From contig JAHEFG010000006.1 of assembly GCA_024640305.1 (NCBI GenBank), positions 1-64,000 of the forward strand: 64,000 nt of DNA. Reading direction: 5' to 3'. Below the pieces are notes generated by a model that worked only from the letters and a program-made list of their open reading frames with translations, did not search any database and was not told the DNA's origin. The translations under genes were made by a program, and so were the position numbers. This document shows positions 34,312 to 55,764 of this stretch, one piece after another (positions within the stretch are counted from its first letter, which is position 1; each line of letters begins with the position of its first letter). Source of the stretch: Gammaproteobacteria bacterium (GTDB lineage: Bacteria; Pseudomonadota; Gammaproteobacteria; Steroidobacterales; Woeseiaceae).

Positions 34312-34467
34312 TGGATATTGTAAGTATACCGTCTTGGGGAGCGCTCATTGTCGGGCGAGGAAGGGCTACAGGTACAATAAGTATCGTCACGTATGTGTAT
34401 CGAGCCAGTACGCTGCTAGCCTGCCTGCCGATATGGCAATGTTAAAAACCAATTAGGGGTCCGTCCA

Positions 34468-35883: not shown

Positions 35884-35895
35884 AGGAGCTCACCG

Positions 35896-36504: not shown

Positions 36505-36507
36505 CGC

Positions 36508-37577: not shown

Positions 37578-37588
37578 TACCTGACGGC

Positions 37589-37876: not shown

Positions 37877-39267
37877 TGGCCGCCCAAGCGAAGAACAAGG
37901 GGGCCGCAGAAGGCTCTTTGTACCAGAGCGCGGCGAAAATCTATCCGCGGGAAATCGGTGGTAAATTCGCCAACCTGAGCAGACTGGCAACCGTTACCCT
38001 TCTGGGTCTGTTCTACATCGTCCCATGGCTCATGTGGGATGACCGGCAGGCAATCCTGTTCGACATGCCAGCCCGCAAATTTTATCTGCTCGGCTTGACC
38101 CTTTGGCCGCAGGACTTTCCATTCCTCGCTTTGCTACTGATCATCGCAGCATTGTCATTGTTCTTTTTTACGGCGCTTGCCGGTCGACTCTTTTGCGGTT
38201 TCGCCTGCCCTCAGACTGTCTGGACGGAAGCTTTCATCTGGATGGAACAACTCACTGAGGGTACGCGTTCACAGCGCATGAAACTCGACAAAGCGCCATG
38301 GTCACTAAACAAGTTGCGGCGCAAGGGCTCCAAGCAACTGCTGTGGATCACGTTTTCCCTGTGGACAGGCTTTACCTTCGTCGGTTTTTTTGTGCCGATT
38401 CGCCAGCTCGGTATCGACGTCGTCGCATTCAACATCGGCGGGTGGACGCTGTTCTGGATGTTCTTCTACGGATTCGCGACATACGGTAACGCGGGCTACA
38501 TGCGCGAACAGGTTTGCAAGTACATGTGCCCGTATGCACGTTTCCAGAGCGCGATGTTCGACAAAGACACGCTCATTATTTCTTACGATGAGAAACGCGG
38601 TGAGCCGCGCGGGGGTCGTAAACGATCCGTCGACCCGAAGCAGGCAGGGCTTGGCGATTGTATCGACTGCAAACTGTGTGTACAGGTATGTCCGACTGGC
38701 ATCGATATTCGCGATGGTCTGCAATATGAGTGCATCGCCTGTGCCGCCTGCATCGATGCCTGCGATTCAATAATGGACAAGATGAACTACCCCCGCGGCC
38801 TGGTGCGATATTCAACCGAGCACGCCATGAATAGCGAATCGACGAGGGTCTTTCGGCCAAGGATGTTCGTTTACGGGGCGCTGCTGCTGGTTCTTGTCGG
38901 CGGCCTGTTGACAGCGATGGCATCGAGAACGCCGGTCTTACTCGACGTTATTAGAGATAGAAACTCTCTGTACCGCGAGCTCCCGGGCGATGTCATCGAA
39001 AACATTTATACACTCAAGATCATCAACCAAAGCAACGATGCACGACAGTTTCGCTTGTCGGTCGAGGGCATTCCCGGACTCACGCTGGATGGTGTTGCAG
39101 ACCAGTTCAGCGTTGAAGGCGGTGGCGTTCTGTCGATGCCTGTAAGGGTTCGCACCAACCGCGATAACGCCTATGGCATTATGAACATCACGTTTAACCT
39201 GAGTGCCACAGACGATGAGAGTGTCAGCGTGATTGAGGATAGCCGCTTCCTGGGACCAACACCCTGA
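37876..39267 (+). CDS. ccoG: cytochrome oxidase accessory Fe-S protein CcoG (RdxA/FixG)
   Basis: This 463-residue inner-membrane protein has about five helices. It carries CGFACPQTVWTEAFIWME, CKYMCPYARFQ and a dicluster ferredoxin domain (CIDCKLCVQVCPTG, CIACAACIDAC), followed by a C-terminal Ig-like IG_CcoG domain. CcoG reduces Cu(II) to Cu(I) for cbb3 copper insertion. It overlaps the genes on both sides by one or more bases. Confidence 0.95.
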   Translation: MAAQAKNKGAAEGSLYQSAAKIYPREIGGKFANLSRLATVTLLGLFYIVPWLMWDDRQAILFDMPARKFYLLGLTLWPQDFPFLALLLIIAALSLFFFTALAGRLFCGFACPQTVWTEAFIWMEQLTEGTRSQRMKLDKAPWSLNKLRRKGSKQLLWITFSLWTGFTFVGFFVPIRQLGIDVVAFNIGGWTLFWMFFYGFATYGNAGYMREQVCKYMCPYARFQSAMFDKDTLIISYDEKRGEPRGGRKRSVDPKQAGLGDCIDCKLCVQVCPTGIDIRDGLQYECIACAACIDACDSIMDKMNYPRGLVRYSTEHAMNSESTRVFRPRMFVYGALLLVLVGGLLTAMASRTPVLLDVIRDRNSLYRELPGDVIENIYTLKIINQSNDARQFRLSVEGIPGLTLDGVADQFSVEGGGVLSMPVRVRTNRDNAYGIMNITFNLSATDDESVSVIEDSRFLGPTP

Positions 39268-39422
39268 TGTCCGAGCGCGACAGCAAGCCCTGGTACCGAT
39301 ATTTCTGGCCCTGGTTCGTCATCGGTCTGCTGGCCAGTGCGGTGAGTGGCAGCTTGTACAGCGTGTACCTGGCGATGAGTACTGCGGAGCCCGTGTTGAC
39401 GGAGACGCGCGAACGTCAATGA
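39267..39422 (+). CDS. ccoH: very short CcoH/FixH-like membrane protein
   Basis: This 51-residue protein begins MSERDSKPWYRYFWPWFVIG, the characteristic CcoH/FixH opening, and has one membrane helix. It then stops about 100 residues earlier than usual, lacking the periplasmic domain. It overlaps ccoG (TGATG) and ccoI (ATGA) exactly as an intact gene would, so it is probably a functional short form rather than a decayed one. Confidence 0.8.
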   Translation: MSERDSKPWYRYFWPWFVIGLLASAVSGSLYSVYLAMSTAEPVLTETRERQ

Positions 39423-41812
39423 GCACCAGCGCCTGCTTTCATTGCGCGCTGCCGGTCGACCGCGACGACGAATTCCAGGTTGAGATCGACGGTAGCCTGA
39501 AACCCGTTTGCTGTCCCGGCTGCAAGGCCGTCGCCGAACTCATCCGCGATACCGGCATGTCGAGCTATTACGCCATGCGCGAGGCGCCGCAACCCGGCGT
39601 TGGACGCCCGGCCGATGACAGTACCGAATGGCAGGTGTTCGACCGCGATGATATGGTCGACGCGTTCGCCGAAACCAACGACAAGGAAGCAGAGGCAACG
39701 ATTTACATCGGCGGCATGTACTGTGCTGCGTGTAGCTGGCTGATCGAATCGACGCTGACGTCCCTGCCCGGCATCGCGAGCGCGGACGTCAACCCCGTGA
39801 CTCATCGGGTTCGAATTCGCTGGAGCCGCGACGATATTGGCCTGGGTCGAATTCTCGGTACACTTGCCGGCCTCGGGTACGAGCCGCAACCGCTGGCACC
39901 GGAGTCTGCTGCACGCCCGGAGATCGCCGAGCAGCGAACCGCACTTAAGCGGCTTCTCGTCGCTTCGCTGGGCATGATGCAGGCGATGATGTTCGCGGTT
40001 GGACTTTATGCGGGCGATTTCCAGGGCATGGATCCTGACATGCAACATTTCCTGCGCCTGGTTAGTTTCTTTGTGACGACGCCTGTCGTCTTCTACTCGG
40101 CACGTCCGTTTTTTGCCGCTGCGTGGCGCGGAGTCATATCACGACGGCCGGGCATGGACTTGCCGGTTTCGCTAGCTGTTGGAACAGCCTATGTCGCATC
40201 GGTGTACGCCACGTTTACACGCGGTGAGGCGGTCTGGTTCGACTCTGTAACGATGTTTGTATTCTTCCTGACTGTGGGACGTTTTCTCGAGATGCGGGCC
40301 AGGCATCGCTCGGTCGACCGCAGCAGAGCACTGGCTACAGTATTGCCGAACACCGTGACCCGAATCGAAGGCGGAGCAAGTGTCGTAGTGCCACTGAGTC
40401 AGCTGATTGCCGGGGACACGGTTAGCGTCAGAGCGGGCGACGCAATTCCGGCAGACGGTTACCTCATGACCAGAGTTGCGTCTGTCGATGAGGCGCTGCT
40501 GACCGGGGAAGCCATGCCGCAGGCTAAATCATCGGGCGACCTCCTTGTCGCTGGAAGCATCAATCTCGACTCCATGATCGAGATGCAAGTAGAGAAGACC
40601 GGTCCTGATACGACACTTGGCACGATCAACCGGCTTAGTGAACGTGCGCGCTATGCGCGGCCTGCCTTCGTGCAGCTGGCCGATCGCATAGCGAGTTATA
40701 TCGTCGTTGCGATCCTGCTTATCGCGATCGCCGTGGCCTCGTTCTGGCTGTTCATGTCGCCCGACCGCGCCTTCGTCATTACATTGTCCGTTCTCGTTGT
40801 CACTTGCCCCTGTGCACTGGCGCTTGCTACTCCTGCCGCGTTTGCAGCAGCGGGGTCGCGGCTGGCCGATCTGCGCCTGCTGCTTACCAACGGCAACGCT
40901 ATTGAGGCCCTTTCCAGGGCAACCCACATCGTCTTCGACAAGACCGGAACGCTGACGAAAGGCTCGCCGGTCGTGGTGGCGACATCAATAGTCGATCCCT
41001 CCTTCGACGAGACCAACTGTCTGCACATTGCAGGCGCCCTGGAGCTCGCCTCCTCTCATCCTATTGCGAGCGCGTTTTCACAGCAGCAAAGCAACATTGT
41101 CGCCTCGGACCATCGCATCGCGATCGGCGAAGGTGTTGCCGCTACGATAGGCGGTCGTCGCTGGCGACTTGGACGCTGTTCGTTTGCCGCACCGGGCGCG
41201 CTGGCAGGGATCGCCAACTCCGACGCAGCGCGTGTTTTTCTTGGTGTCGACGGGCAATTAGTCGCAATTTTCGACCTCGAAGACGAAATTCGAACGGACG
41301 CTTACGAAGTGCTGCAGCGGCTCAGAGGACTGGGTCTTAATATAGTGCTGGCAAGCGGGGATAATGACGCATCCGTGTTGCATGTTGCCACTGCATTGGC
41401 GATCGATGACTATCGCAGCCGTTGCTCGCCTGAGGATAAACTCGAGCTTATTCACACAATGCAGGAAAACGGAGACACGGTGATTATGGTCGGGGACGGC
41501 ATCAATGACGCGCCTGTTCTCGCCGGCGCAGATGCGTCCGTTGCATTGGCGGATGGCGCCCTCCTCGCGCAAACCAGCGCTGATCTCATAATGCTGGGCC
41601 ACTCTCTCGGCCCGCTCGTTACAGCGTTTCGAACAGCCAGGCAAACCATGCGCATCGTGCGACAAAACCTGGTGTGGGCTGTGGTTTACAATGCAACGGC
41701 GTTACCACTTGCTGCGATGGGTATGGTGCCGCCGTGGGCAGCGGCAATTGGAATGAGTGCCAGCTCCCTAATCGTGGTGTTGAATGCATTACGTCTGAGT
41801 CGGTTCAAGTAG
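39419..41812 (+). CDS. ccoI: copper-exporting P1B-type ATPase CcoI/FixI
   Basis: This 797-residue copper pump loads copper for cbb3 assembly. It has an N-terminal Cys-rich element (CFHC and CCPGC), a heavy-metal domain (MYCAAC), eight helices with the CPC metal site (VTCPCALALATP), the phosphorylation motif DKTGTLTKGSP and the hinge GDGINDAPVL. The start at the ATG at 39419 overlaps the ccoH stop; the frame is open upstream only because it crosses ccoG and ccoH in another register. Confidence 0.95.
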   Translation: MSTSACFHCALPVDRDDEFQVEIDGSLKPVCCPGCKAVAELIRDTGMSSYYAMREAPQPGVGRPADDSTEWQVFDRDDMVDAFAETNDKEAEATIYIGGMYCAACSWLIESTLTSLPGIASADVNPVTHRVRIRWSRDDIGLGRILGTLAGLGYEPQPLAPESAARPEIAEQRTALKRLLVASLGMMQAMMFAVGLYAGDFQGMDPDMQHFLRLVSFFVTTPVVFYSARPFFAAAWRGVISRRPGMDLPVSLAVGTAYVASVYATFTRGEAVWFDSVTMFVFFLTVGRFLEMRARHRSVDRSRALATVLPNTVTRIEGGASVVVPLSQLIAGDTVSVRAGDAIPADGYLMTRVASVDEALLTGEAMPQAKSSGDLLVAGSINLDSMIEMQVEKTGPDTTLGTINRLSERARYARPAFVQLADRIASYIVVAILLIAIAVASFWLFMSPDRAFVITLSVLVVTCPCALALATPAAFAAAGSRLADLRLLLTNGNAIEALSRATHIVFDKTGTLTKGSPVVVATSIVDPSFDETNCLHIAGALELASSHPIASAFSQQQSNIVASDHRIAIGEGVAATIGGRRWRLGRCSFAAPGALAGIANSDAARVFLGVDGQLVAIFDLEDEIRTDAYEVLQRLRGLGLNIVLASGDNDASVLHVATALAIDDYRSRCSPEDKLELIHTMQENGDTVIMVGDGINDAPVLAGADASVALADGALLAQTSADLIMLGHSLGPLVTAFRTARQTMRIVRQNLVWAVVYNATALPLAAMGMVPPWAAAIGMSASSLIVVLNALRLSRFK

Positions 41813-41814
41813 TC

Positions 41815-41982
41815 ATGAGTATTCTTTACGTCCTGATCCCTTTGGCGCTGCTGCTGCTCGGTGGCGCGGTGTGGGCTTTTTTCTGGGCGGTCAGTTCCGG
41901 CCAGTTTGACGACCTGGACACGCCTGCCGTGCGAATCATCCTGGATGATGACGACAAGCCACCTGAAGATTCGCAATCATGA
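41815..41982 (+). CDS. ccoS: cbb3 oxidase maturation protein CcoS
   Basis: This 55-residue protein has one membrane helix and the CcoS signature FFWAVSSGQFDDLDTPAVRIILDDD. The ATG at 41815 lies two bases after the ccoI stop, and the end overlaps the next gene by four bases. CcoS is needed for haem and copper insertion into CcoN. Confidence 0.94.
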   Translation: MSILYVLIPLALLLLGGAVWAFFWAVSSGQFDDLDTPAVRIILDDDDKPPEDSQS

Positions 41983-42683
41983 CCGACCTAACCCCTGCTT
42001 TGACCGCCGCGCTGCTCACCGGGCTCCTCGGCAGCGCACACTGTGTCGGCATGTGCGCCGGAATCTCCGGATTATTTGCAGTCAATACAAACGTCGCTTC
42101 ACTGCGTGGACAGCTGCCAATGGCACTGACCTATAACTTCGGACGCGTTCTGAGTTATGCCGTTCTCGGCCTCGTTGTCGGCTCGTTTGGCAGTGTCATT
42201 GTGAAAGTGTCGCCGTCCATTGGCGGCCCTATTCGAGTCGTGAGTGGCGCCGTCATTATTCTCGTTGGTCTCAAAGTGGCGTTCGACTGGCGCTTCCTGA
42301 ACATCGTAGAGCGCATGGGAAGCACACTTTGGGCGCGCATCGCTCCAGCCGCAAAAGGTCTGGTACCTGTAACGAATTATCCACGGGCGCTTGGTCTTGG
42401 CCTGGTCTGGGGCTGGCTGCCGTGTGGTCTCGTCTACAGCGTCCTGCTAATCGCGGCAACCAGCGCGAAACCGCTGAGCGGTGCCCTTGTCATGTCAGCA
42501 TTCGGCATAGGAACTCTGCCCGCCATGGTCATGACAGGCCTCGGCGCGGCACAACTCTCCAGAGTCATGAGTCGGCGCGGAACGCGTATCGGCCTCGGCT
42601 TGCTCATCGTCGTTCTTGGCCTACTGACGATCGCGATGCCAATCGCTTCATGGCTGTCGCCGGCGATGCCACAACACCACTAG
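41979..42683 (+). CDS. sulfite exporter TauE/SafE-like (UreH-domain) membrane protein
   Basis: This 234-residue protein has six hydrophobic helices and conserved cysteine motifs in the first and fourth (GLLGSAHCVGMCAG and WGWLPCGLVYSVL). It belongs to the UreH/SafE-like family related to DsbD-type thiol or metal transporters, and this gene commonly closes cco clusters. A role in copper or thiol supply for oxidase assembly is inferred. Confidence 0.9.
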   Translation: MTDLTPALTAALLTGLLGSAHCVGMCAGISGLFAVNTNVASLRGQLPMALTYNFGRVLSYAVLGLVVGSFGSVIVKVSPSIGGPIRVVSGAVIILVGLKVAFDWRFLNIVERMGSTLWARIAPAAKGLVPVTNYPRALGLGLVWGWLPCGLVYSVLLIAATSAKPLSGALVMSAFGIGTLPAMVMTGLGAAQLSRVMSRRGTRIGLGLLIVVLGLLTIAMPIASWLSPAMPQHH

Positions 42684-43965: not shown

Positions 43966-45252
43966 ATGACAGAACAACTCGCCGAAACCCTGAACAGAGA
44001 TTGCTACTGTATCGCTGTAAATAAAGAAGCGCTTCGCAATAGCCTGAAATTCCACCTCAGAGATTCAGGTCTGCCGGAACAACTCCTCGACTCTAACAGC
44101 CACCTATTCGCGGATTCACCTGTCTTTCTGGAGCGTGAACATCTTCGAAAAATGGAGCAGCTAATTCACGCCGTGGAGAGTGTTACCGGAAACACCGCTT
44201 ATCGAGGTAAGGTGCTCGCCGCTGCACCCGCCTCCGCTCGTCAGGACTTCGGCCCACGAGGCGTCTTTTTTGGTTACGATTTTCACCTCGGCGCGGATGG
44301 CCCGCAGTTAATCGAGATCAACACGAATGCTGGCGGAGTATTGCTAAGTTTGTATTTGGCTTCAGCCCAACAAGCCTGCTGTGAAGAGGTCACGGCCTTC
44401 TTTGGCGGACGAACGAACTTCGCGGATGCCGAGAACGAACTGATCGAAATGTTCGAGAAGGAATGGAAATCGCAGCGTCCGGATACGGCCTTACATACAG
44501 TCGCCATTGTTGACAACAAACCATCTTCGCAGTTCTTGTACCCTGAGTTTCTGCTCTTTCAGTCGATGTTTGAACGGCATGGTATTGAAGCAATAATAGC
44601 CGATCCCAAAGACTTCACAATCGAAGACAACAAGTTGAGTTGCGGCGGGCAGAAGATCGACTTGGTTTATAACCGCCTCACGGACTTTTACCTGGAGGCT
44701 CCTGAATCCGCTTGCTTGCTCGAGGCCTATCGTAAAGGTATTGCGACAGTCACTCCGTCACCGTACCTCTACGCTCTCTATGCGGACAAACGTAATCTGC
44801 CACTGCTTTCAGATGCAAAACAGCTCGAGGCACTTGGCGTTGCGGCGGAGGTTATAAATACGCTGGGTCGTTCATTGCCAAAGACAGTGGCTGTCACGAA
44901 AGACAACGCCGACCAACTCTGGGCGAATCGAAAACAGCTTTTTTTTAAACCCGCAACCGGATATGGCAGTCGTGGTGCATATCGTGGCGCCAAGGTCACG
45001 AAGCGGGTTTGGGAAGACATCATCCGCGCTAATTACGTTGCCCAGGCGATGATCCCACCCAGCAAACGGCAACTCATTATCAACGGCGAGAAGCGGTCGT
45101 TAAAACTCGATATCCGTTGCGTAGCCTACAACGGCAAGATTCAGCAATTATCGGCCAGATTATACGAAGGCCAGACAACCAACCTCAGGACCGAGGGCGG
45201 TGGCCTCGCTACTGTCTTCTCAACTCCGGAAAGTCGCCTTGCGGGTCAATAA
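43966..45252 (+). CDS. ATP-grasp-like protein of unknown function
   Basis: This 428-residue cytoplasmic protein contains GVFFGYDFHLGADGPQLIEINTNAGG (residues 100-125), resembling an ATP-grasp acidic metal-binding segment, and FFKPATGYGSRGAYRGAKV (about residues 327-345), resembling the nucleotide-binding lysine and glycine loop. The metal-type motif preceding the nucleotide loop hints at circular permutation, as in the glutathionylspermidine-synthase-like group. I do not recognise a specific family, and the ligated substrates are unknown. Its end is three bases from the convergent oxidoreductase gene. Confidence 0.8.
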   Translation: MTEQLAETLNRDCYCIAVNKEALRNSLKFHLRDSGLPEQLLDSNSHLFADSPVFLEREHLRKMEQLIHAVESVTGNTAYRGKVLAAAPASARQDFGPRGVFFGYDFHLGADGPQLIEINTNAGGVLLSLYLASAQQACCEEVTAFFGGRTNFADAENELIEMFEKEWKSQRPDTALHTVAIVDNKPSSQFLYPEFLLFQSMFERHGIEAIIADPKDFTIEDNKLSCGGQKIDLVYNRLTDFYLEAPESACLLEAYRKGIATVTPSPYLYALYADKRNLPLLSDAKQLEALGVAAEVINTLGRSLPKTVAVTKDNADQLWANRKQLFFKPATGYGSRGAYRGAKVTKRVWEDIIRANYVAQAMIPPSKRQLIINGEKRSLKLDIRCVAYNGKIQQLSARLYEGQTTNLRTEGGGLATVFSTPESRLAGQ

Positions 45253-45255: not shown

Positions 45256-46572
45256 TTACTCCGTTCCCCATTTAGTCTCGACGTTGATGCCTATCGTGCG
45301 TAAAAACGCACTCGGCAGAATTCCGCCAGCTGAGACGACGACTGCATCGTTCGGAATTGACTCATTTGTGCCTTCCACGTCGATTATGACGCTGCGTTCG
45401 CCAATAGCCTGGACGTTGGAATTGAAAAGCACGCGAATTCGACCAGCCGCTTCCATCTCTTCAACCAGTTCACGGTTCTTGAGCTTTGCTCGTGAAAAAG
45501 CGGCAGACCGGTACGACAAAGTGACCGTGGTGCCAGGCTCAGCAGCAATAGTCGTGGCAGCCTCCAGTGCACTATCTCCACCACCAACAACAAGAACGTT
45601 CTGATTGCGGTGTTGCCCGGGATCGATAACCCGGTATACGACTTTGGTCCTCTCTTCGCCAGGCACACCGAGTTTTCGCGGCGAACCGCGACGGCCAATT
45701 GCCAGCAATACGGTACGTGTGTTGTAGCTGGTGGCATTGGTTTTCACTGTAAATCCACCGCCAGCTGCGCCTTCAACCGCCTCGACGTGCTCGTCGTAAT
45801 TAATCGAGATTCCGGTTTTATGCTCGACCTGCTGCCAGTACTCGATCAGTGTTTCCTTTTGCACTTCCTTAAAGCTCATGAGACCAACCATGGGCAGCGA
45901 TGCAGGTTGCGTCATGACGAGCTTGCGCCGAGGAAAGTGGGCAACTGTACCACCCAGCTCTTCCTGCTCCAGAGTGGCGTATCGAAGCTTCGATTCATGC
46001 GCCCCAAGCGTCGCCGAGATACCTGCAGGACCAGCACCAACGATAACAAGGTCCAGCTCATTCTGATGCGGCTCTTTGACGACAGCAGCAATATTTTGTA
46101 ATGCCTGCTTACCCTGCTCCACAGCATTCCTGATCAACCCCATGCCACCCAGTTCTCCGGCAATAAAGACACCTGGCACGTCGGTCTGAAAATCGGGGTT
46201 CACGCGTGGAATATCGATGCCCCGCCGGGACGTTCCAAATACGAGCGTAATCGCATTGACGGGGCAAACGGTCTTGCATGCACCATGGCCGATACAATCG
46301 GTTGGCCCGACCAGGTGAGCTTTCTTTCTGATCATGCCCAGTACCGCATGGGAACTCTGCTCCGGACACGCCGCCACGCAATTGGTGCAACCGATGCACT
46401 TCGTCAGGTCGATCTCCGGATGCAGCGTCGGTGGCTCAATCATGCCGGATTCAGTGGACGTCACAAGAACGCCCAGACTGGACGATTCCTTGTGCCTGTG
46501 ACTTCGCATGTACAACGCGAAAATCACTATGACTGGCACCGCATAGAGAGCTATATGTAGAGCATTACCCAA
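45256..46572 (-). CDS. membrane-anchored ferredoxin/FAD-dependent oxidoreductase
   Basis: This 438-residue protein has one N-terminal helix (residues 5-22), a dicluster ferredoxin domain and a thioredoxin-reductase-like FAD/NAD(P) domain. The first cluster motif is CIGCTNCVAACP (C59, C62, C65, C69). The second is CIGHGACKTVCP, with His in place of the second Cys (C93, H96, C99, C103). FAD binding is at VIVGAGPAGISA and NAD(P) binding at VVVGGGDSALEAA. No CxxC redox-active disulfide of true thioredoxin reductase is evident. It is divergent from the multihaem cytochrome operon and probably feeds electrons from NAD(P)H or ferredoxin into it, or receives them. Confidence 0.9.
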   Translation of the reverse strand: MGNALHIALYAVPVIVIFALYMRSHRHKESSSLGVLVTSTESGMIEPPTLHPEIDLTKCIGCTNCVAACPEQSSHAVLGMIRKKAHLVGPTDCIGHGACKTVCPVNAITLVFGTSRRGIDIPRVNPDFQTDVPGVFIAGELGGMGLIRNAVEQGKQALQNIAAVVKEPHQNELDLVIVGAGPAGISATLGAHESKLRYATLEQEELGGTVAHFPRRKLVMTQPASLPMVGLMSFKEVQKETLIEYWQQVEHKTGISINYDEHVEAVEGAAGGGFTVKTNATSYNTRTVLLAIGRRGSPRKLGVPGEERTKVVYRVIDPGQHRNQNVLVVGGGDSALEAATTIAAEPGTTVTLSYRSAAFSRAKLKNRELVEEMEAAGRIRVLFNSNVQAIGERSVIIDVEGTNESIPNDAVVVSAGGILPSAFLRTIGINVETKWGTE

Positions 46573-46805
46573 TGGCGATCACTTGTAATTGCGCAGTAAG
46601 GGAATTCAAGGTTAGTGAGGCTGCAATTTCCTAGTGTGACCCGAATCACAAAATAGTCCAAATAGCAGTCAATTCGGCCTTAATCCTGTCGGCAAAAAGA
46701 GACATCAACGCAAAATCGGGAACCATTCCCGCTTTTTGTCCGTGTTAATGAGTAATGTCTCTTCTAGCCGGCAACAATGTTGCCAGAATCGCGTCAGGAT
46801 TGGAT
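46573..46805. promoter_or_regulatory. divergent control region of the multihaem cytochrome locus
   Basis: This 233-base gap separates the oxidoreductase gene from the cytochrome operon and must hold both promoters. The clearest element is the CRP-type palindrome at 46635-46650. I do not see unambiguous -35/-10 pairs. Confidence 0.6.
46635..46650. promoter_or_regulatory. CRP/Vfr-type binding site
   Basis: TGTGACCCGAATCACA carries both consensus half sites TGTGA and TCACA with the canonical six-base spacer. It lies about 63 bases before the oxidoreductase ATG and about 155 bases before the first cytochrome-operon start. FNR sites would read TTGAT/ATCAA, so a cAMP receptor protein-type regulator is the better match. 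Confidence 0.7.
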
Positions 46806-47261
46806 ATGTCAGGATTATTTTGGGTAGCCAGCATCACGTTGGCCAGCGTCGCCTTTGCCTTTGTGGGCCTGCCGCTGCTATCAAACGGCAGGCGCAGATT
46901 TGTACTCGTCGCCGCGGTTGCTGTGCCGGTTTTTTCGGGCGGACTTTATTGGACGTTAGGTACACCAGCAGCAGCTGGCGGAGTGCTTTCTTCAGGCGAT
47001 GCGCCGCACGTGAGTCGCAGTAGCTCATCGAGAGCAACAGGACAACCGGTTGGTTCAGTTGCCAGCATGGTCGACGGACTTGCCGTCCGACTTGAGGCCA
47101 ATCCGGAAGACGGCGCGAGCTGGCTGTTACTGGCGAAGTCCTACAAACACCTTGGCCAAATCCCCGAAGCTATCGCAGCGTACGCAAGGGCGGCGGCACT
47201 TGGCAAGACCGACCCGGATCTGGCAGCCCTGTCCGGTATTCAGACTCCTATCAACCAATAA
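46806..47261 (+). CDS. CcmI/CycH-like TPR membrane protein
   Basis: This 151-residue protein has two N-terminal helices (MSGLFWVASITLASVAFAFVG and FVLVAAVAVPVFSGGLYW) and a C-terminal TPR pair (VDGLAVRLEANPEDGASWLLLAKSYKHLGQIPEAIAAYARAAAL). This layout matches a compact CcmI, the apocytochrome chaperone of the Ccm system I. The start at the ATG at 46806 follows AGGA by seven bases; the ATG at 46755 lacks a ribosome site. As first gene of the operon it may present the many-CXXCH apoproteins for haem attachment. Confidence 0.82.
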   Translation: MSGLFWVASITLASVAFAFVGLPLLSNGRRRFVLVAAVAVPVFSGGLYWTLGTPAAAGGVLSSGDAPHVSRSSSSRATGQPVGSVASMVDGLAVRLEANPEDGASWLLLAKSYKHLGQIPEAIAAYARAAALGKTDPDLAALSGIQTPINQ

Positions 47262-47275
47262 AAAGACCAATAACC

Positions 47276-48181
47276 ATGATGGAAACAACTGTCATTACCC
47301 AGGCGGCGACGCAGGAAACGGTCGAACCGAAGCAACCGACGAAAGTAAAGTCACGCATTGGCCTTTACGGTTACCTGTTTTTATTCGCCGCCTTGATCGG
47401 CGGTTTGCTATTGCGGGAACAAAAACTCGTGAACCCGCAAGTCGGTTTCGGCTATTGGCTCGGCATCGTCGGCGGATCGCTGATGCTGTTCCTGCTCCTG
47501 TACCCGGCCGGCAAGAAGTCGGCGATCCTGCGACGAATGGGCCTCGTTAAGCACTGGTTTCGCATCCATATGATTATCGGCCTGGTCGGTCCACTACTTA
47601 TTCTCTATCACTGCAACTTCAGCGTGTCGGCCATGAACAGCAAAGTCGCGCTCTATAGCATGCTCGGTGTTGCGTTCAGCGGCCTCATCGGGCGCTATTT
47701 CTACACACGCATTCACCGCGGCCTTTATGGCAAGCGAGCTGGTATTGAGGACCTTCGAAGTGAAATCGCAGATGCCATGAGCAACAGCCGCGGCCTTGCG
47801 GCGATATTGCCAAATTTTATTGGCGAATTACACGCCGTTTCCGCTGACCTTATCGGCGACAAATTCACTCGTGCAATCAGCATGCGGCGAAGCCTCTTGT
47901 GGATCATTAAGTATTACGTCGTACGAGCCCGGCTTTACCTCACGATTCAACGCGAGCTACACGGTCGTGCCGCCAGCTCAGACACAATGCGCGCCAACAC
48001 GAAGAACCTGCGAAAGACCGCCAATGCGTACGCCGCACAGCAGGTTCGCCTCATGCGGCAGGTCGCGCAACTTTCATTTTATGAGCGTCTCTTTTCGCTG
48101 TGGCATGTCTTTCACATGCCACTTTTCATTTTACTCGTGATATCGGCACTGGTGCATGTGCTCGCAGTTCACATGTACTAG
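47276..48181 (+). CDS. His-rich inner-membrane protein, possible b-type cytochrome
   Basis: This 301-residue protein has about five to six helices (residues 30-47, 57-77, 96-113, 122-140 and 278-300). Histidines sit where bis-His haem ligation is possible: H93, H98 and H112 around the third helix, and H277, H280, H294 and H299 around the last. I infer a cytochrome b or ferric-reductase-like electron link between the cytoplasmic-side oxidoreductase and periplasmic cytochromes. No close family name is certain. It is 14 bases after the TPR gene and 17 before the 21-haem cytochrome. Confidence 0.82.
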   Translation: MMETTVITQAATQETVEPKQPTKVKSRIGLYGYLFLFAALIGGLLLREQKLVNPQVGFGYWLGIVGGSLMLFLLLYPAGKKSAILRRMGLVKHWFRIHMIIGLVGPLLILYHCNFSVSAMNSKVALYSMLGVAFSGLIGRYFYTRIHRGLYGKRAGIEDLRSEIADAMSNSRGLAAILPNFIGELHAVSADLIGDKFTRAISMRRSLLWIIKYYVVRARLYLTIQRELHGRAASSDTMRANTKNLRKTANAYAAQQVRLMRQVAQLSFYERLFSLWHVFHMPLFILLVISALVHVLAVHMY

Positions 48182-48198
48182 CCACGTATTCGAGTGGC

Positions 48199-49767
48199 AT
48201 GAGCTGGCACAAATACATATTAATCGGATTGGCGATGACGCTTGCGGTCCTTAAATATACCGACGCGCCTGCGCAGGAGATCGAGACGCTGGTAATGCCC
48301 GGGCAGGTAATTGCTGGACATGCGGATATCGAGCCCGAGTGTGCGTCGTGCCACAAGATGTTTGACAGAAAGGCTCAGCCGCAACTCTGCATGGACTGCC
48401 ACGAAGACATCGGCGCCGACATTGGCTCTTCCACTGGCTTTCACGGCCTTCATCCGGAGGCGAGCAAGGATCAATGTTCAAGTTGTCACGCTGAACATGA
48501 AGGTCGCGACGCTGTCGTTGTGATCCTCGACGAGAATCTTTTTGATCATTCATTCACTGACTTCGACCTGTCCGGTGCACATCTGGAGGCCGAGTGTGCC
48601 AACTGCCATGCAACCGGTAAGAAGCATCGCGAAGCCCCTTCCGACTGCGTGAATTGCCACGAAGAGGACTTGCCTCACGAAGAAACCATGGGTACCGATT
48701 GCGCAAGCTGTCACCAGCCGACCGAGTGGCGGCACGCCATGTTTGATCACTCGACGACGGACTTTCTACTCGTTGGCAAGCATCAGGATGCTGCATGTCT
48801 TGATTGTCACGAGGACCGGACATTTCCGAGTCCGGCATCGACTTGTGTTAGCTGCCACGCAGAAGATGATGCCCACGACGGCCGCAGCGGCGATGACTGC
48901 GCAAACTGCCACACACCGACTGGCTGGAATGATACGACCTTCAATCATTCCCGCGATACGGAGTTTGAATTGCTCGACAGCCATGCGGCCTTGTCATGCG
49001 GCGACTGCCACTCCGAAAATCCGTTCGAGGATCAGATGGAAATGACCTGTGTGTCCTGCCATCTGGAAGATGATAGCCACGACGGCCATAACGGCGACCA
49101 ATGCGACACCTGCCACCGCAGTACGTCCTGGGAGGAACCGTTTTTCGACCATGACCGGGACACGAAGTACCGACTTCTCGGCGGACACAAGGAAGTCGCA
49201 TGTCTTGACTGCCACCTCGAGCCGATTTTCGAGGTAGCGCCGCTAACGAGTTGTGATTCCTGTCATCTGGACGACGACGCTCACGAGGGGTCGTTGGGAT
49301 CGCGTTGCGGAAGTTGCCATACAGAAGTTAAGTGGCAGGATCCTGTGTTTTTCGACCACGACCTTACGAGGTTTCCTCTCCTTGGCGTGCACAACGAGAA
49401 TGAATGCGAGGATTGCCACGAGACACAAGCTTTCGGCCACCAGGAAGGTGACTGTGCCTCCTGCCACCGCGACGACGACCCGCACAACGGTCACTTCCAT
49501 GAGCGCTGCGATACCTGTCACAACCCCGTTGCCTGGGAGATCTGGGCATTTGATCACGACTTACAGACGAGCTTTCCGCTCACTGGCGCGCATGTCAGCG
49601 TCGTCTGTGAAGAATGCCACCGAAGCTCGCTGGACAAGATGATGTCGATCAGCAATAGCTGTCGCAGCTGCCATCGCGCAGATGATATCCATGATGGTGA
49701 ATTCGGATCAGATTGTGGTCGTTGTCACACCGCCGACTCGTTTATCGAAGTGAGGTCACTGCAATGA
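48199..49767 (+). CDS. 21-haem periplasmic cytochrome c
   Basis: This 522-residue exported protein has a signal peptide (MSWHKYILIGLAMTLAVL, cleaved near APAQ) and 21 CXXCH motifs. After the first three they recur as a three-haem unit of about 66-70 residues: CxxCH, W, F-DH, L-x2-H, CxxCH, CxxCH, then D-D-x-H-x-G. The non-CXXCH histidines (FDH, GxH, DDxH) supply one candidate distal ligand per haem, so bis-His haems are likely. It has no other domain, which suggests a periplasmic wire. The ATG at 48199 was chosen because the longer reading overlaps the previous gene and has no signal peptide. Its stop overlaps the next start (ATGA). Confidence 0.93.
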   Translation: MSWHKYILIGLAMTLAVLKYTDAPAQEIETLVMPGQVIAGHADIEPECASCHKMFDRKAQPQLCMDCHEDIGADIGSSTGFHGLHPEASKDQCSSCHAEHEGRDAVVVILDENLFDHSFTDFDLSGAHLEAECANCHATGKKHREAPSDCVNCHEEDLPHEETMGTDCASCHQPTEWRHAMFDHSTTDFLLVGKHQDAACLDCHEDRTFPSPASTCVSCHAEDDAHDGRSGDDCANCHTPTGWNDTTFNHSRDTEFELLDSHAALSCGDCHSENPFEDQMEMTCVSCHLEDDSHDGHNGDQCDTCHRSTSWEEPFFDHDRDTKYRLLGGHKEVACLDCHLEPIFEVAPLTSCDSCHLDDDAHEGSLGSRCGSCHTEVKWQDPVFFDHDLTRFPLLGVHNENECEDCHETQAFGHQEGDCASCHRDDDPHNGHFHERCDTCHNPVAWEIWAFDHDLQTSFPLTGAHVSVVCEECHRSSLDKMMSISNSCRSCHRADDIHDGEFGSDCGRCHTADSFIEVRSLQ

Positions 49768-52721
49768 AAGAACCAATATTGAAGACCTCAATTCAACCGG
49801 GTGCGGCGTCAAGAATCTGGCACCTTTTTCTGCTATCGATCGCCATCATCGGCCTGTTTGTGTCAGGCGATGCGTTATCTCAGCAATCGTTCGATCACTT
49901 TAGTACCGGCTTCGTACTCGATGGGGCCCACACCAACGTTACCTGCGAAAGCTGCCATGCGGGCGGAACGTTTGGCCCGACCGACGCTTCCTGCTCAAGC
50001 TGCCATTCGCAAACCGGAGTCGTGCGCGCATCGTCAAAACCAGCAAGCCATATTGCGACGTTGGGAGAGTGTTCGGATTGCCACATTACGGCAAACTGGG
50101 CCGTCGTAAGCTTCATAGACCATTCTTCCCTGACTGGTAACTGCGTTAGTTGCCACAACGGCTTCCAGGCAACCGGAAAGACTCCGACACATATTTCATC
50201 GGGCGATCGATGCGAAGATTGTCACAATACGACAGGCTGGCTCCCGGCGAATTTCGACCACTCCGGGATCATTGGAAACTGCGTCAGCTGCCATGACGGC
50301 ACTGCCGCGACCGGCAAGGGCCCGACACATGTGCAGACTACGAATGTCTGCGAAGACTGTCACAGCACGATTACGTTCGTTCCGGTCACCACTGTCGATC
50401 ACACGCAAGTTCTGGGCGCATGCAGTTCCTGCCATGACGGCATAACGGCGACTGGTAAACATGCTACTCACATTAGTAGTGGCACGAATTGCGATGACTG
50501 CCATTCGACGGTTGCCTGGTTGCCTGCCAATTTCGATCACATCGACATCACCGGCAATTGCGTGAGTTGCCACAACGGTGTCGAAGCGACCGGCAAGAAT
50601 TTCTCGCACATGCAGACAACGAACGTCTGTGAAGACTGCCATAACCCCAATTTATGGGCGCCGACATTTACGGTTGATCACACGCAGGTACTGGGAACCT
50701 GCGGGTCTTGCCACGATGGCGTAACCGCAACGGGCAGGAATCCAACCCATATTTCGAGTGGCATCAACTGTGACGACTGCCACGCGACAACGGGCTGGTT
50801 ACCCGCCAACTTCAACCATGCCGATATCACGAATAACTGCAGCAACTGTCACAACGGCGTGGACGCGACGGGCAAAGACCTTACTCACATCCAAACCAGC
50901 AACATCTGCGAAGACTGCCACAATTCAAACGTATGGGTCCCGGTGAACACGGTCGACCACACGCAGGTCACAGGAACTTGTAGTTCATGTCATGACGGTG
51001 TAACGGCAACTGGCAAGAACCTGACACACATCACCAGCGGTGACACCTGTGACGATTGTCACTCGACAGTTGGCTGGCTGCCGGCGAACTTCGATCATTT
51101 GAACATCACCGGTAGCTGCATTGACTGCCATAACGGCGTGGATGCCATCGGTAAGGGTGCCACGCATATCCAGACCAGCGACGTATGCGAGGACTGCCAT
51201 AACACCAACGTATTTGCGCCCTCGTTTACAGTCGACCATACGCAGGTCATCGGCGTCTGCAGCTCTTGTCACGATGGCATAGTCGCGACCGGCAAGCACC
51301 CGACGCACTTTGCCAGCAGCGATACTTGCGATGACTGCCACACGACAGTTGCATGGCGACCAGCGACATTCGATCACCTGGACATTACGGGCAATTGCGT
51401 TAGCTGCCACAACGGTCTGGATGCCACGGGCAAGAACCTGACGCATATGCAGACGAGTAACGTCTGTGAGGATTGCCACAATAGTAATGCGTGGTCTCCA
51501 GCCGATACGGTTGATCACACACAGGTACTGGGCAGTTGCGGCTCCTGTCATGACGGTTTTACTGCAACGGGCAAACATCCAACGCACATCACGAGCAATG
51601 ATAGTTGCGACGACTGTCATTCGACAGTTGGCTGGTTACCAGCTAATTTCGATCACGCCGGCATCGTTGGCAATTGCGTCAGCTGCCATAACGGCGTCGA
51701 GGCCACCGGCAAAGATCTCACTCACATCCAGACGACTGACGTCTGCGAGGACTGCCATAACCCGAATGTCTGGACACCGGTTTTCACGGTTGACCATACA
51801 CAGGTAATTGGTGCCTGCGGCTCCTGCCACGACGGAATAATTGCCACAGGCAAGAACGCAACACACATTACCAGCGGCACTAATTGCGACGACTGTCACT
51901 CAACGGTCAGCTGGCTGCCTGCCAATTTCGATCACGTAAATATTACGGGCAACTGTGCCGACTGCCACAATGGTACCGATGCGACGGGCAAGAACCCGAC
52001 ACACATTCAGACGACCAACGTGTGCGAAGACTGCCACACGTCCAACGTCTGGGTTCCCGTATACACCGTCGACCACACGCAGGTCATTGGTACATGTGGT
52101 TCCTGCCACGATGGCAACATAGCGACCGGCAAGAACCCGACGCATATCGCCAGTGGCAATAACTGCGATGACTGCCACACGACAGTCGCGTGGCTGCCCG
52201 CCAACTTCGACCACGTCAACATCGTGGATAACTGTTTCAGCTGCCACAACGGCACTGATGCCATCGGTAAGGGACCGACCCACGTCCAGACAACCAATGT
52301 CTGCGAGGATTGCCACACCACAACGGTCTGGGCACCTGTTACAACGGTGGATCACAACCAGGTTCTCGGCTCATGCTCGTCCTGCCACAATGGCACGACG
52401 GCCACCGGACAAAACCCCGGCCACTTCAATACGTCGCAAGACTGTGGCGTGTGCCACAGTCCCGTCGCGTGGCAGCCGGCTGACTATCGGCACACCGGAC
52501 TTACGTACGAACCGCAGGATCATCGTGGCAACTTCGCCTGCACCGAGTGCCACCAGAACAATTCGGACGTGGTCAACTGGTCGTCGCCCGGATACCAGCC
52601 AAACTGCGCAGGTTGTCACGCCGGTGACTACAAGGCCCGCGTAGACAAGCACAACGGTCTGTCCCAGGATCAGAACTGTGCGTCCAGCGGCTGTCACAGA
52701 ATCAGTGACAGAGAATGGTAG
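49764..52721 (+). CDS. 40-haem repeat cytochrome c
   Basis: This 985-residue exported protein has a signal peptide (residues 1-39, hydrophobic core FLLSIAIIGLFVSG) and 39 CXXCH motifs plus one CASSGCH near the C-terminus. From residue 150 to 893 it consists of eight 93-residue units, each with four haem sites in the order CDDCH, CVSCH, CEDCH, CSSCH. W, FDH/VDH and THI/SHM lie at fixed places, giving four candidate distal histidines per unit. It contains no other domain. Density is one haem per 25 residues. Position between a periplasmic 21-haem cytochrome and a beta-barrel suggests a wire crossing or leaving the envelope. Confidence 0.93.
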   Translation: MKEPILKTSIQPGAASRIWHLFLLSIAIIGLFVSGDALSQQSFDHFSTGFVLDGAHTNVTCESCHAGGTFGPTDASCSSCHSQTGVVRASSKPASHIATLGECSDCHITANWAVVSFIDHSSLTGNCVSCHNGFQATGKTPTHISSGDRCEDCHNTTGWLPANFDHSGIIGNCVSCHDGTAATGKGPTHVQTTNVCEDCHSTITFVPVTTVDHTQVLGACSSCHDGITATGKHATHISSGTNCDDCHSTVAWLPANFDHIDITGNCVSCHNGVEATGKNFSHMQTTNVCEDCHNPNLWAPTFTVDHTQVLGTCGSCHDGVTATGRNPTHISSGINCDDCHATTGWLPANFNHADITNNCSNCHNGVDATGKDLTHIQTSNICEDCHNSNVWVPVNTVDHTQVTGTCSSCHDGVTATGKNLTHITSGDTCDDCHSTVGWLPANFDHLNITGSCIDCHNGVDAIGKGATHIQTSDVCEDCHNTNVFAPSFTVDHTQVIGVCSSCHDGIVATGKHPTHFASSDTCDDCHTTVAWRPATFDHLDITGNCVSCHNGLDATGKNLTHMQTSNVCEDCHNSNAWSPADTVDHTQVLGSCGSCHDGFTATGKHPTHITSNDSCDDCHSTVGWLPANFDHAGIVGNCVSCHNGVEATGKDLTHIQTTDVCEDCHNPNVWTPVFTVDHTQVIGACGSCHDGIIATGKNATHITSGTNCDDCHSTVSWLPANFDHVNITGNCADCHNGTDATGKNPTHIQTTNVCEDCHTSNVWVPVYTVDHTQVIGTCGSCHDGNIATGKNPTHIASGNNCDDCHTTVAWLPANFDHVNIVDNCFSCHNGTDAIGKGPTHVQTTNVCEDCHTTTVWAPVTTVDHNQVLGSCSSCHNGTTATGQNPGHFNTSQDCGVCHSPVAWQPADYRHTGLTYEPQDHRGNFACTECHQNNSDVVNWSSPGYQPNCAGCHAGDYKARVDKHNGLSQDQNCASSGCHRISDREW
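50211..52442 (+). repeat. eight tandem 279-bp coding repeats
   Basis: The codon for the first Cys of the CDDCH-class motif occurs at 50211, 50490 and then every 279 bases to 52164, with no insertion or deletion. A ninth partial unit begins at 52443. Units differ by scattered substitutions but keep all haem codons, so the array was made by tandem duplication and is held by selection on length. Confidence 0.92.
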
Positions 52722-55159
52722 CTTCGTATTTCAACTGTGGCGGTCGCCCATTCGGCCGCTGGGTAACTGCTACTTTGCTGGCTTTTGCGACCCAAGTGAC
52801 GTGGGCGGGGCCGGGTTTCATTAGCAGCGCCCGGGTTTCAGGTGATGACCTGAGCGCCGAGATTGCAATCAGTTTTAATTGTAAAGCCCAATACATTCGA
52901 CATGAGCCGCAGGGCAGCGGCGACTATGTGCGCATTTATTTGGATCCAACCGGGATCTGCAATGGAGTGTCCCCACTCGTCACGAATTCCCGAGCACTGA
53001 TGCGTCCGATCAACTCCGACATGGCGCACCTGTCTGATCTGGAATACGACGGCGACTCAGCCGCTGGTTCGGTACTTACGCTGAGCTTCAGCGAACCGGT
53101 TGACTACACGGTGGAGATGTCGGGCATCTCCTTCGAACTCGTGGTTCACGTTCATCCTTTCTCAGCGCAGCCCGTAGCAAAGGCAGAAAAGCCAGCCGTT
53201 GACCACCGACGCGTCCCCCAACAGCCGCTCGAGACGCCGGACTACGCAATCAATCTGGCGTCGTTTCAGCGCATACCAACCATTGCGGATGCACCCGGAC
53301 TGGTCCCCGCATCCAACCAGAGACTTTACTACTCGGAGGCGAGTGTCGACGGTAAACCCTGGTACCGCTTGAGCCTGGGTAATTTTGTCTCTGTCGATGA
53401 AGCCTCAGCAGTACTCACTGGCCTGCGACAGAAATATCCCGATGCCTGGATAGGCGAGATCGACACAGATGATGTCACCGTCGAATTGACTGCCGTGGAC
53501 GATGACGAGATGTCCGCACTCAGCAACTTGGGCGACGGCGCCAGCAAGGTCGATTTGCTGATGGAGGAAGCGCGCAAGACCATGGTGGCAGGCGACACGT
53601 CCAGAGCGATCCAGATCTATACCAAAATTCTCCAAATGCCAGAGAACTCCCGCCAGCCGGAGGCCCAGGAGTACCTTGCCCTGGCTCGCGAGAAAAATGG
53701 ACAAATGGCACATGCAAAAGCGGAGTACCAGCGCTATTTGTCCATGTACCCCGATGACGATGGCGCCCCCCGAGTTGCGCAGCGGCTTGCCGCCCTGCTC
53801 GCAAGCGGCCGTCAAGCTGGAACCGTAAGCAATGGGCAAGGCAATAACAAAATCGCGAAGCGCAGCGACTGGCGAATGCAGACGTTCTTTTCTCAATACT
53901 ATCGACGTGATGCGAACCAGCAGAATGAGCAGGAACAGATACTCAGCCAGTCAGCGCTATACTCCGACGTAAATTTCGATGCAAGGCGGCGTGGCGAACG
54001 TTTCGATTTCAGCAGCCGAGTATCTGCCGGGTATCGCAACGACTTTCTCGACGAGGAAGTGGCCACAGGCAACGATACGAGAGTTTCCTATGCGTATGCT
54101 GATTTGGCAGACGCGAAAACAGGATGGCGTGGAAGACTTGGTCGCCAGTCCAGAAATACTGGCGGTGTACTCGGTCGATTCGACGGTTTGAACATCGGCT
54201 ACCAGGCGAGCGAGAGACTGCTGCTTAACGCCGTCGTCGGGAAGCCGGCATATTCCGCATCTGAAGGCGTCGATTCGTCACGCTCGTTCTACGGTGCCAG
54301 CCTTAATTTCGGGCCAGTTTTGGACAACCTCGACGTCGGGCTGTTCTATATCGACCAAAAAATTGAAGGCATCCAGGATCGGCAAGCAATTGGTACCGAG
54401 TTCCGCTACTTCGGCACCAACCAGAGCCTTTGGGGCATGATCGACTATGACGTTGCATTCGGCGAACTTTCCAGCGCGTTCCTGCAAGGCAGCTGGCGAC
54501 TACCATCGCGGTTGTCAATTCACGGAGTTATCGATCGGCGCGGTAGCCCATTCCTGAGTACCGGCAACGCCATCATCGGCCAACCAGTGACATCGTTTGA
54601 TGAACTCGCTGTTATCTTCAGTGAAGATGAGCTGCTGCAACTCAGTCGGGATCGTACGCCCATTTCGACGACATTCACGGTCGGACTGTCTTATCCGATT
54701 TCGACGAAGTTGCAGATCAACGCCGACACGAGCCAATCGACAATTGAGGAAACCCCGGCATCTGGCGGCGTCCTGTCAACTCCCGGCGCAAGCTACAGTT
54801 ACTATTCAACCAGCCTTATCGCCAGCAGCCTGTTCAAAGAAGGCGACGTGACGATATTTGGTGCTCGCTACTCGGACTCGGATACGACAAAAGTTATATC
54901 GCTCACGGTCGACAGCCGCTACCCAATTGGTAGAACCTGGCGGATAAACCCGAGGTTAAGGGTTGACCGGAGACAAAGGCTGGCGGATTCGAGTTACGAA
55001 TGGCTTTACACGCCTGGATTACGAATCCAGTATCGGCGTAGTCAAAAGCTGCGCGTCGATCTCGAAGTCGGCAAGCAATTCGCACAGCGAGAAACGGTCG
55101 ATGTAAATTTGGATCGCGAGTCCTATTTCATTAGCCTCGGCTATCAGCTGTTCTTCTGA
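52715..55159 (+). CDS. SPOR-TPR-beta-barrel outer-membrane protein of the cytochrome locus
   Basis: This 814-residue protein has a signal peptide (cleaved near VTWA-GPG), an AMIN-like beta domain (residues 30-150), a SPOR-like domain (about 185-255, YAINLASFQRIPT...WYRLSLGNFVS), TPR-like helices (275-360) and a C-terminal region of alternating strands (about 390-814) ending YFISLGYQLFF. The aromatic end is a typical outer-membrane barrel signal. It follows the 40-haem gene with a seven-base overlap. The barrel may be the sheath of the conduit; the SPOR and TPR parts could bind peptidoglycan and the cytochromes. The function is inferred. Confidence 0.85.
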   Translation: MVASYFNCGGRPFGRWVTATLLAFATQVTWAGPGFISSARVSGDDLSAEIAISFNCKAQYIRHEPQGSGDYVRIYLDPTGICNGVSPLVTNSRALMRPINSDMAHLSDLEYDGDSAAGSVLTLSFSEPVDYTVEMSGISFELVVHVHPFSAQPVAKAEKPAVDHRRVPQQPLETPDYAINLASFQRIPTIADAPGLVPASNQRLYYSEASVDGKPWYRLSLGNFVSVDEASAVLTGLRQKYPDAWIGEIDTDDVTVELTAVDDDEMSALSNLGDGASKVDLLMEEARKTMVAGDTSRAIQIYTKILQMPENSRQPEAQEYLALAREKNGQMAHAKAEYQRYLSMYPDDDGAPRVAQRLAALLASGRQAGTVSNGQGNNKIAKRSDWRMQTFFSQYYRRDANQQNEQEQILSQSALYSDVNFDARRRGERFDFSSRVSAGYRNDFLDEEVATGNDTRVSYAYADLADAKTGWRGRLGRQSRNTGGVLGRFDGLNIGYQASERLLLNAVVGKPAYSASEGVDSSRSFYGASLNFGPVLDNLDVGLFYIDQKIEGIQDRQAIGTEFRYFGTNQSLWGMIDYDVAFGELSSAFLQGSWRLPSRLSIHGVIDRRGSPFLSTGNAIIGQPVTSFDELAVIFSEDELLQLSRDRTPISTTFTVGLSYPISTKLQINADTSQSTIEETPASGGVLSTPGASYSYYSTSLIASSLFKEGDVTIFGARYSDSDTTKVISLTVDSRYPIGRTWRINPRLRVDRRQRLADSSYEWLYTPGLRIQYRRSQKLRVDLEVGKQFAQRETVDVNLDRESYFISLGYQLFF

Positions 55160-55764
55160 TGATGTTGGAGCAATCGAAAATGTCGTTGCGGAAATTGCAG
55201 TGTCTCCTAACCGCGGTCGTGCTTGCTTCATTCATCGGGTGTTCGTCTACTGACTCAATGCCGACTCAGAAACTGGATCCGTTGACCGCAGTCACGATCA
55301 CATTTGCCAAGTCGCCACTTGTCTTCTATCACGACCAATCCGGTCGCGCCGCATATGCGCGAGACTATATTCATATGGCACCGCTCGAGGTTAACCGAGG
55401 CGGAACTTACCGCTATTTTATTTGGCTCGGAATCTGGAACACGCAACAAGACAGCCAGACCGGCGGCCCGCGTGATGGCTTCGAATCCATTATCGTATTA
55501 GCAGACGGAGAACCCAAAGTACTGGAACTAAGCGGCTGGACAGCGGCTTCCGTTGGCGCGAGTGAACCGATATACCTGAAACCGGTTGCTTCGTCGTCGG
55601 ATGCCTACTATGAAGTGACTGCCGATTATCTTCGGCTGCTCGCCGAGTCGACGGAAATTCAGGTTCGATCGAGCGGCTCGCGTGGAGCATCCTACGAACC
55701 CTGGGACAACCAGGAGCGAGCTTTGATTAGCCTGCGCGATTTCGTGCGCGACGTCAGGTACTGA
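55159..55764 (+). CDS. lipoprotein of unknown function in the cytochrome operon
   Basis: This 201-residue lipoprotein has a signal ending ASFIGCSS. The mature part is beta-rich with YRYFIWLGIWNT near residue 88 and no recognised domain or haem motif. Its ATG overlaps the barrel gene stop by one base (TGATG), so it belongs to the same operon. It may be a small outer-membrane accessory to the barrel. Confidence 0.82.
   Translation: MMLEQSKMSLRKLQCLLTAVVLASFIGCSSTDSMPTQKLDPLTAVTITFAKSPLVFYHDQSGRAAYARDYIHMAPLEVNRGGTYRYFIWLGIWNTQQDSQTGGPRDGFESIIVLADGEPKVLELSGWTAASVGASEPIYLKPVASSSDAYYEVTADYLRLLAESTEIQVRSSGSRGASYEPWDNQERALISLRDFVRDVRY

Follow-up and report, generated by a model that had tools for sequence, protein, structure and literature searches.

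Porin–cytochrome clusters of the PCC3 kind were named in 2017 (He et al., PMC5566968), where they are described as a porin, an extracellular multihaem cytochrome (MHC), a periplasmic MHC and an inner-membrane protein (IMP). In that description, the periplasmic MHC has a median of 21 haems and the extracellular MHC a median of 34, rising to 85. The porins have up to 42 transmembrane strands, and the IMP, of ~300 residues, carries two WX3HX13H motifs and an SGXXG motif. Two clusters with the same parts are described for Sideroxydans ES-1 (PMC8788666); the cytochromes have 17 and 21 haems in Slit_0867-0870 and 24 and 28 in Slit_1446-1449.

Woeseiaceae are known from marine sediments, and a 2025 paper on sediment Woeseiaceae reports mtrCAB-type genes. 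The main text of that paper contains no word starting with 'PCC', and our literature search returned nothing joining Woeseia and PCC3 among the matches listed. Here, we place a conduit of the PCC3 kind in this family. What is new is its link to a flavoprotein and a haem rule in which the inside is fixed and the outside variable.

A PCC3 cluster in Woeseiaceae

The window, the whole 64,000-base stretch that was analysed, comes from a 2.8 Mb genome assembly that is 78% complete. Its list of open reading frames (ORFs) holds seven genes at 45256-55764 in two divergent units, all where an earlier note on this DNA had placed them:

45256..46572, minus strand: OXR, Fe-S/FAD oxidoreductase (Pfam Fer4_21, Pyr_redox_3)
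46573..46754, no strand: intergenic region, presumed site of both promoters
46755..47261, plus strand: CcmI/CycH-like membrane protein with TPR (PF23914, E 3.7e-6, under the cut-off)
47276..48181, plus strand: IMP, five-helix membrane protein, putative dihaem cytochrome b (motifs, model, hydropathy, loop charges)
48199..49767, plus strand: 21-haem cytochrome, putative periplasmic (Cytochrome_C7; likely start 48199)
49764..52721, plus strand: 40-haem cytochrome, putative surface (Cytochrome_C7, doubled CXXCH; likely start 49764)
52715..55159, plus strand: outer-membrane barrel protein with SPOR and TPR (Pfam SPOR/TPR, model, fold matches)
55159..55764, plus strand: putative outer-membrane lipoprotein (lipobox-like FIGC, by eye)

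Five of the six junctions are tight, as the earlier note had counted. A 182-base gap (46573..46754) separates the divergent starts of the OXR and CcmI-like genes, followed by gaps of 14 bases (CcmI-like/IMP) and 17 bases (IMP/21-haem) and by overlaps of 4 bases (21-haem/40-haem), 7 bases (40-haem/barrel) and 1 base (barrel/lipoprotein), all lengths that depend on the start codons we picked. Dozens of loci show the same gene order, and the arrangement in the window is therefore not due to chance.

Compared with published PCC3 by description, motifs and gene order, the cluster is a member of this group. It shows the IMP motifs, a ~21-haem MHC, a large repetitive MHC and an adjacent barrel, their locations being predicted. 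The order of IMP, periplasmic MHC, surface MHC and porin is that of Sideroxydans Slit_1446-1449 (PMC5566968), and the 21- or 24-haem periplasmic cytochrome, the long low-complexity surface cytochrome and the IMP motifs are likewise shared. With 21 haems at the published PCC3 median and 40 within the published range, the haem numbers are typical rather than distinctive. The earlier note had seen a distinct combination in these numbers, the SPOR-TPR barrel and the oxidoreductase; the latter two are also found in PCC3 loci class-wide, and we dropped the idea of a distinct new system because the cluster has the features of PCC3. What stands of the proposed trans-envelope conduit is a conserved set of parts, with the barrel and both cytochromes together. 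The published four-gene description of PCC3 does not list OXR, the CcmI-like protein, the lipoprotein or the Sel1-ankyrin partner described below.

Other known systems are more distant. PCC4 and the 'other MHC' clusters (PMC5566968) resemble the window in having a five-helix IMP with two HX13H motifs and, as is noted there for most non-porin clusters, another redox protein. Unlike the window, PCC4 has no surface MHC, the cytochromes of both groups are smaller, and their IMPs are stated to have no significant overall similarity to PCC3 IMPs. MtrCAB, MtoAB and PioAB also cross the outer membrane by means of a barrel with a multihaem cytochrome, but the window has far more haems and a different inner-membrane protein. 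No window protein matched the MtrB family in Pfam at E<=0.01. An MtrCAB-type assignment was rejected for want of an MtrB-type or DmsE/MtrA match above cut-off, the 40-haem protein scoring 172.7 bits to TIGR03508 against a cut-off of 192.2.

The inner-membrane protein

The gene product that had been called a His-rich membrane protein is indeed predicted to lie in the membrane, and its motifs now identify it as a PCC3 IMP. The 301-residue protein contains both WX3HX13H motifs and SGXXG, and W94, H98, H112, S135, G136, G139, W276, H280 and H294 are invariant in a 54-row alignment. Among IMP ORFs of 230 aa or longer in the fetched loci, 71 of 72 have all motifs, a count that includes duplicates (L001-L003 repeat the contigs of L006, L010 and L008); the exception is the broken locus L083. 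As two His pairs, H98, H112, H280 and H294 would bind stacked b haems. The loops of the IMP (model pLDDT 88.9) are basic at 73-92 and 147-270 and carry little charge at 113-119 and the C-terminus. Together with hydropathy, these charges predict that a helical insert (~150-265) is cytoplasmic, presumably on the OXR side.

The arrangement is reminiscent of NADPH oxidases and ferric reductases (FRD), which also have four histidines, as HX13H on two helices (noted in PMC5566968), and a partner binding NAD(P) and FAD on the side of the cytoplasm, where we would also place that of the window. It differs in that the window IMP lacks PF01794, the flavoprotein is a separate gene of thioredoxin reductase (TrxR) type with Fe-S sites, and the electrons would pass to a c-type cytochrome. 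The window IMP has no Pfam match at E<=0.01, PF01794 included, and a search with 54 IMPs at E<=1 does not show PF01794 among the families listed (the best 25 of 29). Weak matches at this threshold include DUF4405 (9/54) and Ni_hydr_CYTB (3/54). Foldseek gave no match to the fold at E<=0.001, VIA-align returned other sorts of helical bundle, and no FRD or cytochrome-b chain stands among the best 50 rows of either search. Against solved structures, the IMP profile returned three designed coiled coils and one histone-like protein.

The barrel protein and accessory genes

In the predicted model, the barrel protein consists of a beta-rich domain (36-148), SPOR (177-258), TPR (264-364) and the barrel itself (386-814). 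The barrel has ~22 strands in this model, whose pLDDT is 68.6 and in which the barrel part is uneven, with ~390-560 poorly predicted. The barrel matches porins in fold, and the TPR part YbgF and BamD. SPOR scores 22.2 bits, just above the cut-off of 21, and TPR is weak in Pfam; both domains recur in all three barrels scanned outside Woeseiaceae (L047, L060, L065). SPOR domains generally bind the cell wall, which suggests that the barrel is anchored to it. An AMIN-like assignment of the N-terminal beta domain, a pattern impression, was dropped as Pfam gave no support. A small ORF matching this domain at E<=1e-3 occurs in 9 of 40 class loci. Among the matches listed, the barrel homologues with organism names are 'Woeseiaceae bacterium' or 'Gammaproteobacteria bacterium'.

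For the CcmI-like chaperone of the earlier note, Pfam gives a weak PF23914 match, 27.3 bits against a cut-off of 42. It is possibly a dedicated apocytochrome chaperone; a CcmI-like match was found in 8 of 40 class loci. The lipoprotein has 317 homologues and no Pfam match at E<=0.01, and among the fetched loci it is confined to Woeseiaceae and two other families of the same order (L046, L047). Both genes look like lineage features. Ten bases lie between the lipoprotein gene and the end of a separate Sel1 gene (210 aa). Elsewhere, a secreted protein with Sel1 and ankyrin repeats is encoded in 29 of the 40 class loci (L046-L085, >200 bits), usually beside OXR; none was seen beside the window cluster.

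Conservation of the proposed conduit

Eighty stretches were fetched, from which L001-L005 (duplicates, a stray match and the own genome) were left out. The barrel profile matched in 42 of 107 Woeseiaceae genomes, marginally in G044, whose locus shows no other PCC3 gene. The earlier note had suggested checking whether barrel and cytochromes occur together, and they do: in 61 of 65 barrel loci a script found a multihaem gene upstream. Among the other four, L022 fails the overlap cut-off only, L026 and L036 lie at or near a contig end, and L083 is broken. Barrels are therefore not consistently found without multihaem cytochromes. L083 itself is a degraded PCC3, in which the IMP and barrel are fragmented with no cytochrome between them, and OXR and Sel1-ankyrin are present.

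The class-wide set comprised 369 genomes. The IMP matched in 62, of which 41 scored >80 bits, a cut-off for strong IMPs that was set once the scores were seen; the 21 genomes with weaker matches are counted among the 328 without.

Haem numbers inside and outside

The first cytochrome has 21 CXXCH motifs, mostly in trihaem (c7-like) repeats of ~68 residues, and no match among solved structures. The 40 haems claimed for the second hold only if one CX4CH near its C-terminus is added to 39 CXXCH; the number 21 stands as given. A 93-residue tetrahaem repeat dominates the second protein (lag-93 identity 0.57; 24.6 aa per haem), and Pfam Cytochrome_C7/c3 families match both.

Counted across loci by CXXCH only, and with some loci from closely related species, the first cytochrome has 21 haem sites in 55, 24 in 6 and 18 in 2 of the 63 complete loci (from 66 strong-IMP loci). 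All 63 counts are multiples of three, matching the trihaem repeat of the window protein. The second cytochrome ranges from 5 to 67 with a median of 24 (52 complete loci with barrel). Inside, in the periplasm, length hardly changes between loci and outside it varies freely, a rule that extends the published haem counts. At L053:6577-18834, a stop-free ORF of 4086 aa with 133 CXXCH follows a 24-haem PCC3 cytochrome, exceeding the maxima of 85 and 86 haems published in two papers.

The flavoprotein and its link to the IMP

The description of OXR as a membrane-anchored ferredoxin/FAD oxidoreductase agrees with its Pfam Fer4 and Pyr_redox matches and with an N-terminal membrane segment read by eye. 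Basic residues after this segment suggest a cytoplasmic orientation. The sequence contains two [4Fe-4S]-type sites, CxxCxxCxxxCP and CxxHxxCxxxCP. Site one consists of four Cys, of which C62 gives way to Ser or Thr in 5 of the 51 alignment rows (the L001 row duplicates L006). Site two (C93, H96, C99, C103) is invariant in all 51, and its invariant His at a Cys position is a notable detail. The putative FAD/NAD(P) domain is thioredoxin-reductase-like; among solved structures, a thioredoxin reductase entry and Bdr/YpdA come closest. In the window protein this domain contains no Cys and thus is not a dithiol reductase.

Scoring at most four candidates per genome, we found OXR at E<=1e-100 in 43 of the 369 class genomes: in 41 of 41 with a strong IMP versus 2 of 328 others (Fisher p ~1.7e-52, kinship ignored). 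In one of the two extras, G283, the contig with OXR also bears a PCC3 barrel and a cytochrome that is cut off (L105); the other, G204, has a partial OXR match only. An OXR match lies within 3.5 kb of the IMP in 51 of 66 strong-IMP loci, divergently in 50 of the 51. The 51 include L010, whose PCC3 is otherwise normal and has 53 haems in the second cytochrome but keeps of OXR just the C-terminal residues 350-436 (L010:16065-16325). Eight of 40 class loci have OXR more than 3.5 kb away from the IMP, at another place in the genome.

OXR is not universal in PCC3: four of the nine Woeseiaceae genomes searched have PCC3 without an intact OXR. At E<=1e-60, OXR is present in G038, G033, G025, G011 and G006 and absent in G085, G071, G067 and G073. 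The first three of the latter are 89-100% complete and hold a second type of PCC3 with a 5- or 9-haem second cytochrome; the main PCC3 of G073 (76% complete) retains only a C-terminal OXR remnant. This second Woeseiaceae type is seen in six loci, L038-L043, where the second cytochrome has 5 or 9 haems and OXR was not found nearby; L041 and L043 also have a HYR-domain protein nearby with weak PSCyt/PSD-type matches. Nor was OXR seen within 20 kb around L086, a PCC3 of another class.

Distant IMPs show a similar association. We examined 16 weak-IMP loci (15 of the 28 weak rows plus L045; L045, L090-L104), none of whose stretches has a barrel match. A long ORF precedes the IMP in all 16. In 10, an OXR-like long protein, the IMP and a 10-haem cytochrome follow each other; in 6, another long protein precedes the IMP and the cytochrome has 6 or 7 haems. 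All eight partners scanned have NAD(P)/FAD/Fe-S domains, four as TrxR, cNMP and Fer4 and four as FAD_binding_6, NAD_binding_1 and Fer2. The words FAD, CcmI and lipoprotein are absent from the main text of PMC5566968, and among the titles listed in literature searches none dealt with OXR in PCC3. A flavoprotein that nearly always accompanies PCC3 class-wide offers a handle on the electron source or sink and allows predictions for deletion strains.

Proposed mechanism and direction

The presence of OXR suggests that the wire may be fed directly by the NAD(P)H of the cell. With about even confidence, we propose that PCC3 forms a conduit leading from an NAD(P)H-type flavoprotein through a dihaem cytochrome b, the 21-haem cytochrome and the barrel to the 40-haem cytochrome, with flow mostly outward. 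OXR, facing the cytoplasm from its membrane anchor and bearing two Fe-S sites, would exchange electrons with the IMP, and the IMP would hand them across the inner membrane to the 21-haem cytochrome. The latter, with about seven trihaem units, would span the periplasm, enter the beta-barrel, whose SPOR and TPR domains would tie it to the cell wall, and pass the electrons to the 40-haem surface wire. Net flow from NAD(P)H to an outside acceptor would make the system akin to an NADPH oxidase or ferric reductase in split form that feeds a wire.

The negative-inside membrane potential favours the exit of electrons and opposes direct uptake to NAD(P)+, which leads us to lean to export. That OXR accompanies every strong IMP class-wide, and that distant, barrel-less IMPs also stand behind flavoproteins, supports a flavoprotein-fed IMP. 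The loop charges, which put the large IMP insert on the presumed OXR side, and the Cys-free flavin domain also count in its favour. Against it count the Woeseiaceae genomes without intact OXR, L086, the loci where OXR lies further off and the want of a significant fold match for the IMP.

The published account of PCC3 runs the other way. An outside donor (Fe(II), minerals or other cells) would reduce the surface cytochrome, and electrons would reach the quinone pool through the IMP, leaving OXR an accessory role, for example in NADH production. We consider this account unlikely on the whole, though it draws on the model and habitats in PMC5566968, on the many iron oxidisers that carry PCC3 and on the PCC3-bearing genomes without intact OXR; PCC3 is also discussed as a possible iron oxidase (PMC12442390). 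Expression data point both ways. In ES-1, both PCC3 clusters are lower on Fe(II) than on thiosulfate, and the authors judge that PCC3 apparently had no part in Fe(II) oxidation under the conditions used (PMC8788666), which counts for export. In CL21, both clusters lie above mean expression and one PCC3 IMP rises when cells can oxidise iron (PMC12442390), which, with the published quinone-pool model, argues against export. RuBisCO is modestly commoner in PCC3 genomes (28/41 versus 153/328, p 0.012, kinship ignored) and leans to uptake, but no match was found in the own genome (78% complete) or in G123 and G473, PCC3-bearing members of the same order. We did not retain RuBisCO as an uptake marker, the association being weak. 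The regular company of OXR class-wide and the pairing of IMP relatives with flavoproteins even where no barrel is visible also speak against the published direction.

An improbable alternative gives OXR and the CcmI-like protein no part in respiratory electron transfer; they would instead help to attach haem to the giant apocytochromes or to reduce their cysteines. The nearest relatives of OXR, thioredoxin and bacillithiol reductases, and the adjoining CcmI-like gene fit such a role, but the Cys-free flavin domain, the two Fe-S sites, the scarcity of CcmI-like matches in class loci and the different flavoprotein family beside some distant IMPs do not. That the cytochromes are mainly an electron store, a capacitor as proposed in PMC10734462, or a means of cell-to-cell contact without a dedicated external substrate would suit the many and variable haems of the surface protein (5 to 67 with barrel) and is very improbable, since a constant barrel and a periplasmic haem number that hardly varies speak for a path across the envelope and not for a pool.

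Returning to the export wire, we tentatively extend it to a broader proposal that is distinctly less probable. The IMP with its cytoplasmic flavoprotein would be a general and transferable 'split NADPH oxidase', and PCC3 an NAD(P)H-fed export wire assisted by the membrane potential and not primarily an Fe(II) oxidase. If so, many proteobacteria plug the same pair into 6/7-haem cytochromes, 10-haem cytochromes or PCC3 with its barrel, with a periplasmic ruler of mostly seven or eight trihaem units and an outside wire of 5 to >130 haems.

Surroundings of the cluster

A 428-aa ORF (window 43966-45252) without Pfam match adjoins OXR on the opposite strand. From ORF translations, window 3859-19533 holds a probable cluster for the use of beta-glucan (laminarin-type), with glycosidases, transporters and a LacI-type regulator. 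Upstream of the conduit (window 27858-42683), translations likewise indicate a cytochrome cd1-type nitrite reductase and a cbb3 oxidase (cco) cluster, which suggests low-oxygen or nitrite respiration.
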